The notes under the pieces are model-generated. The model was not told the origin of the DNA and made no database searches. It saw nothing but the letters and a program-made list of their open reading frames with translations. Positions 2,459 through 6,615 of a stretch of 6,615 bases of DNA are shown here, piece by piece. Within the stretch, counting starts at the first letter, position 1; each line of letters opens with the position of its first letter. The DNA comes from Candidatus Bathyarchaeota archaeon (GTDB lineage Archaea; Thermoproteota; Bathyarchaeia; TCS64), in NCBI GenBank assembly GCA_014729945.1, contig WJJC01000099.1:1-6615 (forward strand), written 5' to 3'. Position numbers and translations under genes: made by a program.

Positions 2459-4342
2459 TTAAAGTTTCTGTGATAATATTAACTCGTCTAATGTAGTCAC
2501 GTTCTTCTCCGTCTGGATGCTAGATCTATGTTCTGATGGTATCGACTCCAGTGCAAAGTTTTTCAATGTCTCAGTCATCCACACCACTCTTTTATATCCT
2601 CCATCAGCCTGAAGAAACTTGTGTGAGCGTAGATACTGCGTAGCAATAGTGGCTGCTCCATCAGGATATTGTCTACCTGCCACAAGGTTAGCTAACCGAG
2701 ACCAAGTCATATCCCCCGGCGCTATACCCTTGTAGCCTCTATCTACTATGGCTATTCCATCAACTTCTGGAATATAATAAGCAACATTCTGGAAACAACT
2801 ACAGGCTGTATGAGGATATTCGAAAATACTGTGAAGATAAATCCTATCCACTATACCATTCGTCCTGGTATCTGTAGATTCATTTACTCCTTTATACTCG
2901 CCCTTAACGGGGTCAACGCATTCACCTTTTTCTATAAGGGTACATGGATTGTATGTGTCACCGGGAGAAAGAATGGCATAAGCCTTCAACATGTACCATG
3001 GTTTACTACATTGGGCGGGTCTATCCGGAGTAACAGTACAAGCGTGTCCTAATGAAAAGCTTCTGCATCGGGTACATCCATAAAAAGTATCTATATTATC
3101 CTCAGAAGCAGATTCAATTAGTTTTTTCCTCTTATCTCTATAAGCGTCTACCTCTGGACGGAGCCTTTTCTCAGTCTCCTTATCAAGGAAAAAGGATACT
3201 TCAACAGGACCGATCTCTGAGAACTCGTTTCGTAGCTCGGTTATTATCATTTTCCCTATATGATTCAGTGTTACACCTGATTCTTGTGCCTCCTTTGTCA
3301 TCAGGAGCATAACTCCACCCCCGACTCGGCTCTGAATCTTTACACCTTTCGCATATTTAGAGACCCTCTTGATAATAACTTCCACCCAGAGGGTTATCGT
3401 GGGATCTGTCATTGGGTTACCTAGCTCTACTAGGAGACTGAATCCTGAAGCTGTGCTTATTTGACCCTTTACATGAACTTCTTCATGAAGTATGTTACCG
3501 GGTCTACATACCATGAAGCTATTTTCTGATCCTTCTAAACTGACGGTGATTTCACCTTCGTTTAATGTCTCTCTCCGGTAAATTGGTCCGGAGAGGACAG
3601 GTAAATCCGGAGAAGCATGGGTAACGAGTCTAGCCCTAATATTAGGGAGTTTCCAAGCTATATTCATCATCTCGTTTAATGATTTAACACAATAAATGTG
3701 GCCCACTAGCCCCAAGTCTCCCACACAGGAAATAACAGATACACCTAACCCCAGTAGCCCTTGTGTGTATCTTATGCTTTCATCGCTAGGTTCGCCGAAT
3801 AATAGGATTACACCGGGAGCGTATTCCTCTATAGAGTGAGATACCTCATGTGGGTCTCCGCCTAAGTCTCTAGCATATATCAGAGCATACCTAACTAGTA
3901 GTTGAGCAAAGTATATGGCACCAGACTCTCTAGGCCCTAAGTCAATGAACGGGACACCCGCCTGTCTAAGTATTGATGCTGTTTCTCCGTAAGCAAATGG
4001 TTTGAGTTTCCTAGAGTTCAGTCTTGATGTAATCTCCTCTACCTGGGAGGCATCTAAATTCATTAAGAGGGCCCACCCATTTGATCCCTCGTTTAATCCT
4101 ACACAGAGGCTTCTAAATGAGTCATCTGTTATGAAGTAGTTATCGCGATCCGGCTGCTTTGCCTCCTCAAGTTCAGTCATCCATAGCTCGTCAATGTGTT
4201 GTGTATTTTTGGAGGTACACCTGTCTTCTTCTCTTACTTCACTTGAGCTATTTACTCCTTTTACAGCATATAGGATTGGATATTTGAATTCTGTTCCCTT
4301 GAATCCTGTTGAGTTATCATTTTGCTTATTGTTATCATACAT
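2459..4342 (-). CDS. Divergent acetyl-CoA synthase (CdhC/AcsB) homologue
   Basis: A 627-residue homologue of the acetyl-CoA synthase subunit of CO dehydrogenase/acetyl-CoA synthase, which assembles acetyl-CoA from CO, a corrinoid-bound methyl group and CoA. Seen: the A-cluster ligand set C423-x2-C426-x8-C435-x9-C445 (in DTFYGCTRC) plus C514 and C516, the same spacing as Moorella AcsB C506/509/518/528 and 595/597. Phe429 (CRSF) and the family blocks KGECVDPVKG and ADGGYKRVVWM are also kept. Odd points: the Ni site is Cys-Ser-Cys instead of Cys-Gly-Cys; the GQRDxVWIR block of true synthases is replaced near 336-348; the TPCGMKFSTLAG block is degraded to APGDMTWSRLAN. Residues about 70-245 resemble the CODH-facing domain of bacterial AcsB, which short archaeal CdhC lacks. 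The tail after 597 is poorly conserved. The ATG at 4342 is the first in frame after a TAG. No other CODH/ACS gene is present, so activity is uncertain; it may be a paralogue with a changed role. Confidence 0.9.
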   Translation of the reverse strand: MYDNNKQNDNSTGFKGTEFKYPILYAVKGVNSSSEVREEDRCTSKNTQHIDELWMTELEEAKQPDRDNYFITDDSFRSLCVGLNEGSNGWALLMNLDASQVEEITSRLNSRKLKPFAYGETASILRQAGVPFIDLGPRESGAIYFAQLLVRYALIYARDLGGDPHEVSHSIEEYAPGVILLFGEPSDESIRYTQGLLGLGVSVISCVGDLGLVGHIYCVKSLNEMMNIAWKLPNIRARLVTHASPDLPVLSGPIYRRETLNEGEITVSLEGSENSFMVCRPGNILHEEVHVKGQISTASGFSLLVELGNPMTDPTITLWVEVIIKRVSKYAKGVKIQSRVGGGVMLLMTKEAQESGVTLNHIGKMIITELRNEFSEIGPVEVSFFLDKETEKRLRPEVDAYRDKRKKLIESASEDNIDTFYGCTRCRSFSLGHACTVTPDRPAQCSKPWYMLKAYAILSPGDTYNPCTLIEKGECVDPVKGEYKGVNESTDTRTNGIVDRIYLHSIFEYPHTACSCFQNVAYYIPEVDGIAIVDRGYKGIAPGDMTWSRLANLVAGRQYPDGAATIATQYLRSHKFLQADGGYKRVVWMTETLKNFALESIPSEHRSSIQTEKNVTTLDELILSQKL

Positions 4343-4593: not shown

Positions 4594-5265
4594 TCAGTCT
4601 TCTTCATGGTGTTTGTTTCTTCTTACAATTTCTCCGAGCCTATGTCCAATAATCTCTGCCCTTCTATAGGCATCGGGGTCAATGATTGGTAGATGATAGT
4701 CCTTTATTTCATCGAGATATCCGTGTTTAGCAACAACAGAACCTGCGGCGCATGTGTGCCCATAACCACATTGGTAGCATTGTGATATGCCACTAAGTTT
4801 CAGGACACCTACGGGTTCTGCCATATAGTTGCTGCGGAAGATTTTTCGAATATACTTCTCAGCTGGATTATTTTCCTGTGATCCTGTAGCCACTATGACA
4901 TTAAGTTTACCAGCTAGTGGGAATTTTTCTCTGTGTCTTAGGCTGAAAGTGCGTTCAAGAAATGCGTGACCAAGAGCGTTGATTTTGCCATAATAATTAG
5001 GCGCGCCGAATACCAGAGCATCTGCCTGAAGTAGCTTGTCTCGGATATTGCCCCAATCATCATCCATTACACAGATATTATCCTTGGCACATCCAAGGCA
5101 TGCTTGACATCCTTTTATAGTCTTGCCACCTAGACTGATAAACTCATAGGGTTCACCTGTCTTCTCAAGGATATATTTGACCATCTCCTCGTTTACCCCT
5201 TTTATGAGCTTACCGCCCTCATCTCTATGGGTTTGTCTTCCACTGGCGCTGATTCCTAGGATCAT
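4594..5265 (-). CDS. Iron-sulfur flavoprotein (Isf-like, NADPH-dependent FMN reductase family)
   Basis: Flavodoxin-fold protein of 223 residues. Seen: an N-terminal FMN-phosphate loop ILGISASGR (2-10), a compact cluster motif C53-x2-C56-x2-C59-x5-C65, and the fold block VFGAPNYYGKINA (85-97). The cysteine spacing is that of archaeal Isf proteins, which bind one [4Fe-4S] cluster plus FMN. In Methanosarcina thermophila, Isf takes electrons from ferredoxin reduced by the CODH/ACS complex. An additional C163-x2-C166-x5-C172 group near the C-terminus could hold another metal site. The start is well supported: GGTG at 5275-5272 is a Shine-Dalgarno match 6 bases before the ATG, which directly follows the TAG ending the upstream frame. 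Translation is probably coupled to the DsrE-like gene. Stop codon TGA. A redox job alongside the neighbouring acetyl-CoA synthase homologue is inferred from context. Confidence 0.9.
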   Translation of the reverse strand: MILGISASGRQTHRDEGGKLIKGVNEEMVKYILEKTGEPYEFISLGGKTIKGCQACLGCAKDNICVMDDDWGNIRDKLLQADALVFGAPNYYGKINALGHAFLERTFSLRHREKFPLAGKLNVIVATGSQENNPAEKYIRKIFRSNYMAEPVGVLKLSGISQCYQCGYGHTCAAGSVVAKHGYLDEIKDYHLPIIDPDAYRRAEIIGHRLGEIVRRNKHHEED

Positions 5266-5598
5266 CTACCACACCATAGGCGTATAGCCTTGTTTGATAA
5301 AGTCGCTGATGATACTTCCCACGTATTCTACCTTAATTCCCATCTAATCCATTTTTTCACTAATACCTTCTATATCGCTTATTGCTTTACAGGCATAGGT
5401 TTCAGATTTGGCTGCTAGTTCTATTGCAGCGTTAGCTATTTCTTCGTCAGTGGTCATTAATTGCTCGATTGGGCCAAAGTAGATTACTTTAACGTCTTCT
5501 AGCCACTCATTTCGGATGGTGGCTCCTGCATACATTAAGGCGGTTAAAGCCTTAGGCTTATTTTCGGTGGCGATTATTACGAGTAGTTTGTCACTCAT
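5266..5598 (-). CDS. DsrE-like protein interrupted by an in-frame TAG codon
   Basis: DsrE/DsrF-like small protein; the family includes sulfur-relay proteins with a functional Cys and many archaeal members of unknown role. The first 84 codons (5598-5347) give the N-terminal strand LLVIIATENKPKA, VKVIYFGP (36-43) and the conserved ACKA with Cys70. A TAG follows as codon 85 (5346-5344). The same frame then runs 25 more codons, encoding GIKVEYVG and ending GYTPMVW, which is how family members usually end, before a second TAG at 5268-5266. The complete protein would be 110 residues, a normal family length, so the first TAG interrupts a gene rather than ending it. Either this is a nonsense-mutated gene making an 84-residue product, or TAG is decoded (pyrrolysine or readthrough). 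The start is supported by GAGGT at 5609-5605, 6 bases before the ATG and overlapping the stop of the upstream gene. Confidence 0.8.
5344..5346 (-). other. In-frame TAG codon inside the DsrE-like gene
   Basis: TAG falls between ISEKMD and MGIKVEYVG, where family members carry an ordinary residue in the stretch before the last beta strand. Its in-frame position and the intact sequence on both sides are seen directly. Whether it stops translation, is read as pyrrolysine, or is a sequencing error cannot be decided from this window. Confidence 0.75.
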
Positions 5599-5608
5599 TG
5601 AATTACCT

Positions 5609-6178
5609 CTATAGCTGGCTTGGTTTTGCCACGATTTCTTTTACTACCATATTGAAGAAGTTGTGGCTGGGGGCGGCACGAAGTATAACCGCTGTGTCCG
5701 CTCCTCGACCAGAGCCCGCGACCACAAGGACGTTCTTATCTACGGGTATCGCCCCTGCATCTGCTGCCATAGCAGCTATCTCAAACACAACTTTCATTCC
5801 CTGTCCGAACATACGCAGTGTCTGAGCGATTATACCTGCCGGGTACATGGTATCGAATTTTGCCTGAATCGCTCTGTCGATTCCGCTGAAGGTGTGAGCT
5901 GCTATAACAATGGCTCCACCTTTTTCTCGTATTTCGTTAGCAGCTTCCTGTGAGAGTTCTTGTTTACCTGGTTCTCTGAACCCTGTTACGTGGGGGACAA
6001 CGACAACGTTGTAATCTTTGAAATAATTTACTGCATGTTTTCCAGTATCGCCCCTTGTGCTAGCAACTACAAGGTCTTTGATCCCTAATTCGTCGGCTCT
6101 TTCTTTTGCGATTTTTAGGGTCTCCTCTCTGTTGGCTTCACCTGTTTGAGTGAAGTATAGTATGTTTTTTCTAGGCAT
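5609..6178 (-). CDS. Stand-alone pyruvate kinase C-terminal (PK_C, alpha/beta) domain protein
   Basis: A 189-residue protein matching the free-standing PK_C domain proteins of archaea. It lacks the catalytic barrel of pyruvate kinase, so it is not expected to be a pyruvate kinase; its role is unknown. Seen from the ATG at 6178: ILYFTQTGEANREET (6-20), DLVVASTRGDTG (35-46), VVVVPHVTGF (58-67), then TLRMFGQGMKV (120-130) and the glycine-rich AGSGRGADTAVILRA (154-168), likely a phosphate- or nucleotide-binding loop in the domain's allosteric fold. The ATG is preferred over the in-frame TTG at 6187 because the family begins close to it; no clear Shine-Dalgarno precedes either, and a short leader from the element at 6219-6242 is likely. 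It ends TAG-AGG-TAA, with the TAG overlapping the ribosome site of the DsrE-like gene. First gene of the three-gene operon. Confidence 0.88.
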   Translation of the reverse strand: MPRKNILYFTQTGEANREETLKIAKERADELGIKDLVVASTRGDTGKHAVNYFKDYNVVVVPHVTGFREPGKQELSQEAANEIREKGGAIVIAAHTFSGIDRAIQAKFDTMYPAGIIAQTLRMFGQGMKVVFEIAAMAADAGAIPVDKNVLVVAGSGRGADTAVILRAAPSHNFFNMVVKEIVAKPSQL

Positions 6179-6218: not shown

Positions 6219-6242
6219 TTTAGGTAAGAAAAATATACTTGA
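6219..6242 (-). promoter_or_regulatory. Putative promoter element, copy B (upstream of the PK_C operon)
   Basis: Near-identical partner of the element at 4489-4514: begins TTTAGG, shares AAATATAC and ends TTGA on the plus strand. On the minus strand it offers GTATATTT (6238-6231) as TATA box for the operon starting at 6178, predicting transcription from about 6207 and a leader of about 30 bases. The extent of the match beyond the TATA core suggests a shared regulator site. Confidence 0.5.
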
Positions 6243-6244
6243 TT

Positions 6245-6615
6245 GTGTTGGGGGAAGTAAGTCTAAAGGAACTAAAAAACGAGGTAACCCAGTTACGTGT
6301 GGATATAAACAGGATATCCGATGCCATAGTGGAGCAACGCATAGGAAGCGTTGAGAAGGCAATAGCCTCGAAACATATGAAGGTCTACGCAAACCAAGCA
6401 ACGAGTTATCTCAAGGACTCTATCCAGAAATGCGTTAATATGGAATGCAGCAGAAATCAGGAATGCCTTGAAACGTTTAAAGACGAGGCAAACACGGTCC
6501 TAGGTTCCGTTGAGAGTCCGAGTATAGATGAGGTTTTTAAAAGGATTCATGAAAGATTAACGAGTATTCAATCCGTGATAAATGAGGCTGAGTCCAAACC
6601 CTGTAGGACATGTTA
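6245..6615 (+). CDS. Unrecognised helical Cys-containing protein (3' end outside the window)
   Basis: The frame from GTG at 6245 stays open to the window end, giving at least 123 residues; the upstream frame is closed by TAG at 6221-6223. TTG at 6239 or 6248 are alternative starts. The product is not recognised. It is rich in Glu, Lys, Ser and Ile with heptad-like helical stretches (10-60 and 90-117). It carries C63, C68 and C74, then C120-x2-C123 at the cut end, which may begin a metal-binding motif. The composition is that of a real soluble protein, and the opposite-strand frame (6195-6401) is a low-quality shadow. It is transcribed divergently from the PK_C operon and may share its control region. 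Confidence 0.7.
   Translation, partial: MLGEVSLKELKNEVTQLRVDINRISDAIVEQRIGSVEKAIASKHMKVYANQATSYLKDSIQKCVNMECSRNQECLETFKDEANTVLGSVESPSIDEVFKRIHERLTSIQSVINEAESKPCRTC

Follow-up and report, generated by a model that had tools for sequence, protein, structure and literature searches.

Does the amber codon that interrupts a DsrE-like gene of this uncultured archaeon encode an amino acid, is it a young nonsense mutation, or did it arise in the contig and not in the organism? The window analysed here, which is the whole stretch of 6,615 nucleotides, carries the gene on its minus strand (5598-5266) as a frame of 84 codons, a TAG (5344-5346), 25 further codons and a closing TAG (5266-5268). A sequence-only reading had proposed that the amber codon is decoded or that it is a fresh nonsense mutation, and its coordinates and its description of the 25 in-frame codons after the TAG are accurate by translation. 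We favor the nonsense mutation: the TAG is a real, private and young nonsense substitution in a DsrE-fold gene that is otherwise ordinary, from an uncultured Bathyarchaeia-related archaeon, with a probability of about 0.6.

The 5' part of the gene (5344-5598, minus strand) comprises the 84 sense codons and the premature TAG, which is codon 85 of the family-like frame. It is followed immediately by an ATG (5341-5343), the first codon of the remainder of the frame (5266-5343, minus strand), which presumably is untranslated. The 25-residue peptide encoded in this remainder (MGIKVEYVG...GYTPMVW) is identical over 25/25 positions to P0001, the nearest DsrE relative, and its final Trp110 is present in all 120 of the listed homologues (of 133), which identifies it as the family's own C-terminus, as the sequence-only reading had assumed. 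Sequence comparison thus indicates that the family-like frame after the TAG is not due to chance.

The protein is related in structure to proteins of the DsrE/DsrF/TusD-type fold (PDB 2fb6, 1jx7 YchN, 1l1s MTH1491, 2pd2 ST0148 and 2hy5 DsrEFH) and corresponds to a full-length alpha/beta DsrE fold, but unlike these proteins the window copy is broken by the TAG. Neither Pfam nor NCBIfam has a model that matches it at the limits used, and with the limit raised to 10 the sole model is PF06875 (E 0.099, below cut-off); one of its relatives (P0056) bears the NCBI name 'DsrE family protein'. Codon 85 is placed by the predicted structure at the end of a short helix (residues 80-85), and two strands (89-91 and 106-109) and a helix (93-102) are predicted beyond the premature stop.

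A search of ∼5.8 billion proteins, with the DsrE-like frame read through the TAG as the query, returned 133 relatives, 120 of which were listed and aligned. Among these, residue 85 is Glu (40 proteins), Gly (25), Lys (21), Asp (15), Ser and Arg (7 each), Asn (2) or Val, Gln and Ala (one each); it is Glu in all four nearest relatives. The relatives were clustered at 90% identity, so a truncated copy, even the product of the window itself, could be hidden within the cluster of P0001, which has five members. Genome contigs were also scanned, and while a scan with the single DsrE protein found no relatives there, an alignment-based scan found 70 DsrE loci. At the seven nearest loci codon 85 is GAG (four), GGG (two) or AAG (one). 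The class was covered by 256 genomes, 21 of which have the DsrE family, with 22 matches at E 1e-10 or better, none of which contains an inside stop; 21 of the 22 span codon 85, while the match in G239 covers residues 2-60 only and falls short of it. Two partial matches (L046 and L055) extend into masked sequence and were not counted as truncations. A plasmid search with the DNA of the part that holds the DsrE gene and the pyruvate-kinase C-terminal-domain gene next to it gave no match.

On these alignments codon 85 is a variable position, occupied by a stop in none of the other sequences examined. The sequence-only reading had suggested aligning close homologues to see whether the TAG is conserved or replaced by one residue; it is not conserved, and several residues (Glu, Gly, Lys and others) take its place. 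The stop is private to the window's DsrE gene and its close relatives have a sense codon, and the option of a fresh nonsense mutation draws its support from the sense codons at 7/7 nearest loci and in 120/120 listed homologues.

The DsrE-fold protein is encoded in a cassette (4594-6178, minus strand) together with a pyruvate-kinase C-terminal-domain (PK_C) protein and a flavodoxin that has a cysteine-rich motif. The cassette begins with the PK_C gene (5609-6178, minus strand; PF02887, E 3.2e-08), an open frame ending in TAG that encodes the domain as a stand-alone protein. The flavodoxin or NADPH-dependent FMN reductase-type gene (4594-5265, minus strand; PF03358, E 1.4e-12) is likewise an open frame, and its ATG lies immediately 3' of the closing TAG of the DsrE gene. 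The ribosome sites of the DsrE and flavodoxin genes had been described as intact, and both are plausible when judged by eye against the Shine-Dalgarno consensus: a putative GAGGT (5605-5609, minus strand) precedes the DsrE-like gene, and a putative GGTG (5272-5275, minus strand), located within the C-terminal codons of DsrE, precedes the flavodoxin gene. The flavodoxin gene neighbors DsrE in 7/7 of the closest loci, and a PK_C relative (35%) is found near DsrE in L010. Close copies of the flavodoxin (61 to 74% identity) are present in nine genomes of the class (G001 to G007, G238 and G252), two of which (G238 and G252) had no match to DsrE, and distant copies (45% and 40%) in two further genomes of the class. 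One TAA was reported inside the flavodoxin match of G006.

TAG is a common terminator around the nearest relatives of the gene. In the seven nearest loci (L001-L007), which belong to relatives and not to the source genome, mechanical calling of ORFs with 100 or more residues gave 60, of which 23 end in TAG, 21 in TAA and 16 in TGA. For the DsrE gene the stop is TAG in four of these loci and TAA in three, and in L001 and L004 it is followed immediately by the flavodoxin ATG, as in the window. Since TAG terminates DsrE in 4/7 loci, the PK_C gene of the window and 23/60 ORFs, the closing TAG is best read as a true stop, in agreement with the sequence-only reading.

The age of the premature stop can be considered from the divergence of the cassette. 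Among the matches listed, the nearest relative of the DsrE-like protein (P0001) shares 95% identity over all 110 residues, and the corresponding values are 97% for the PK_C protein (P0241) and 92% for the flavodoxin. The longest contig is 5110 bases for both P0241 and P0001, suggesting that the two probably derive from one contig. Because DsrE diverges no faster than its neighbors, the stop is either young or not in the organism at all, and this neighbor-like divergence, together with the 25/25 identity after the TAG, does not point to a long period of relaxed selection. The same pattern would result from a base error or from working read-through.

We propose that a recent nonsense substitution in a single codon created the TAG in an otherwise normal DsrE-fold gene. 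Translation would stop after residue 84, and the truncated product would lack the final two strands, a helix and the C-terminus, which is highly conserved; this loss would most likely render it non-functional. The rest of the frame would still be family-like because it has had too little time to decay, and the closing TAG would be the ancestral stop. The recency of the TAG and the real presence of its base in the organism are both points that we infer. The private stop, the variable site, the common use of TAG as a terminator in the nearest loci, the absence of PylS and PylD above cut-off from the near relatives searched and a nearby unusual residue (I76, see below) appear to support the mutation. 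The gene matches ordinary nonsense-mutated genes in single-population contigs in having one private stop, sense codons in sister sequences and an intact remainder, and we noted no difference from them.

A base-call or assembly error in the metagenome contig, with the real DsrE gene intact, is the alternative that survives best, and we regard it as possible though clearly less probable than the mutation. It would account for the departure of a single codon from a family-like frame and for the unaccelerated divergence of DsrE, and the two odd codons of the gene, 76 and 85, are 27 bases apart, as in a low-quality patch. Against this, the neighboring genes are open along their length. Codon 76 (5371-5373, minus strand) is ATA (Ile) in the locus DNA, while the alignment has Arg in 102 of the 120 listed homologues and Ile in none. 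The claim that no other disabling change is visible overlooked this residue, although a disabling effect of I76 is unproven. We treat I76 as a warning sign, a hint that constraint has relaxed or that the sequence is poor in this stretch. It carries little weight, since it is the only residue of the window protein unseen among the listed homologues, 76/120 of which have as many unseen residues or more, and in 31/120 one or more such residues fall where conservation is strong.

Decoding of the TAG to give a 110-residue protein, with pyrrolysine or through a different suppressor tRNA, is very unlikely. Pyrrolysine-encoded proteins include MtmB, MtbB, MttB and rarer neutral cases, and a neutral protein of this kind that is not a methyltransferase has reportedly been proposed. 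The window gene resembles them in its in-frame TAG and in the intact, family-like frame on either side. In these proteins the TAG is usually common to relatives at the same position, though this is not required of a neutral new case; the window TAG, in contrast, is private, its site is variable, and the near relatives searched have neither PylS nor PylD above cut-off. In lineages that use pyrrolysine, TAG is typically rare as a terminator. Sifarchaeia are an exception, combining a frequent UAG stop with Pyl encoding according to part of the text of PMC9723677, so frequent UAG termination alone has no power to exclude Pyl. Passages of PMC9499178 and PMC11764691, both reviews, assign Pyl to Bathyarchaeota, and in the available part of PMC7886697 pyrrolysine appears in one reference only.

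Within the class, PylS is over cut-off in 3/256 genomes (G071, G218 and G224) and PylD in 2/256 (G218 and G224), with the control Methanosarcina acetivorans passing for PylD, and tRNA-Pyl lies within two of the three loci that have PylS over cut-off. In G218 and G224, PylS and tRNA-Pyl occur in one locus (L079 and L081) and PylD is also present, while G071 has PylS without PylD above cut-off. A minority of the class therefore has pyrrolysine. None of the three PylS genomes has a flavodoxin match at E 1e-30; two of them gave no match to the DsrE family and the third a weak one (E 1.2e-4). In the 12 genomes to which the DsrE loci led, PylS is never over cut-off. In the eleven genomes with flavodoxin copies (nine close and two distant) neither PylS nor PylD is over cut-off, where the PylD scoring covered only nine candidates in most of the genomes shown (e.g. 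9/25 in G001), so that a copy may have been missed, and where the completeness of the searched genomes is not stated, which makes absence from any one genome soft. Sub-threshold PylD matches are present in G213 (partial, E 9.7e-22) and G169 (E 9.8e-11). The combination of missing pyl genes and sense codons in sister genomes, which the sequence-only reading had set against decoding, is what we find at the level of the relatives' genomes.

Matches to PylS at E 0.001 or better are found in 9/12 near genomes, 220/256 genomes of the class and 13/14 control genomes (Methanosarcina acetivorans among the 13), with one control over cut-off. Being so widespread, the sub-threshold matches were not accepted as PylS and probably represent other class II synthetases. 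No tRNA was found in the 6,615-nt window.

The MttB family offers a further view of TAG usage, and is present in seven of the 12 near genomes with 11 matches, nine of which have no inside stop. For the other two, in close genomes, an automatic scan reported one TAG inside MttB. In the DNA of both loci (L091 and L093), a frame ends in TAG directly 5' of an in-frame MttB-like gene with an apparent TTG start, and the TAG is the stop of this preceding frame, which from its sequence we take to encode a corrinoid protein; it was rejected as a Pyl codon. The in-frame TAG in mttB suggested as a marker of decoding is thus missing from all 11 matches in the near relatives. Overall, the decoded amber codon finds no support in the 0/22 inside stops of the class-level DsrE matches, in the nine genomes with close flavodoxin copies or in the common use of TAG as a terminator.

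It is just as improbable that the gene is split, with termination at the TAG, a restart at the adjoining ATG (5341-5343) and assembly of the two pieces. A stop-ATG arrangement also joins DsrE to the flavodoxin gene, but here the ATG corresponds to Met86, which is common in the family (69/120 listed homologues), so that the adjacency of TAG and ATG is expected by descent. Moreover, no strong Shine-Dalgarno sequence was seen by eye at the usual distance before 5341-5343, and none of the 120 listed homologues ends at the split point. Least probable of all is a source archaeon that, like a few genomes of its class, has a pyl cassette and in which a neutral new TAG encodes pyrrolysine in a non-methyltransferase protein of redox or sulfur type, while other TAGs, including the closing one, terminate.

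The nonsense mutation, as one private stop codon in one gene, is a finding of small weight, and its value is one of caution. An intact frame after a TAG is also what a base error, or a nonsense mutation that is still young, would leave, and claims of amber recoding therefore require that pyl genes be present in the genome concerned and, as a rule, that relatives share the TAG. If recoding were true, the gene would be a test case for the coexistence of Pyl insertion and UAG termination within one gene.

Two other frames were noted in the window. On the plus strand, 6239-6613 is the start of an open frame of at least 125 residues that is cut by the window end and has no family over cut-off. On the minus strand, 2459-4342 encodes a 627-residue protein that resembles the acetyl-CoA synthase (ACS) beta subunit and the fused alpha/beta form; it is below the NCBIfam cut-offs and over the Pfam cut-off for PF19436, and is perhaps a divergent ACS.
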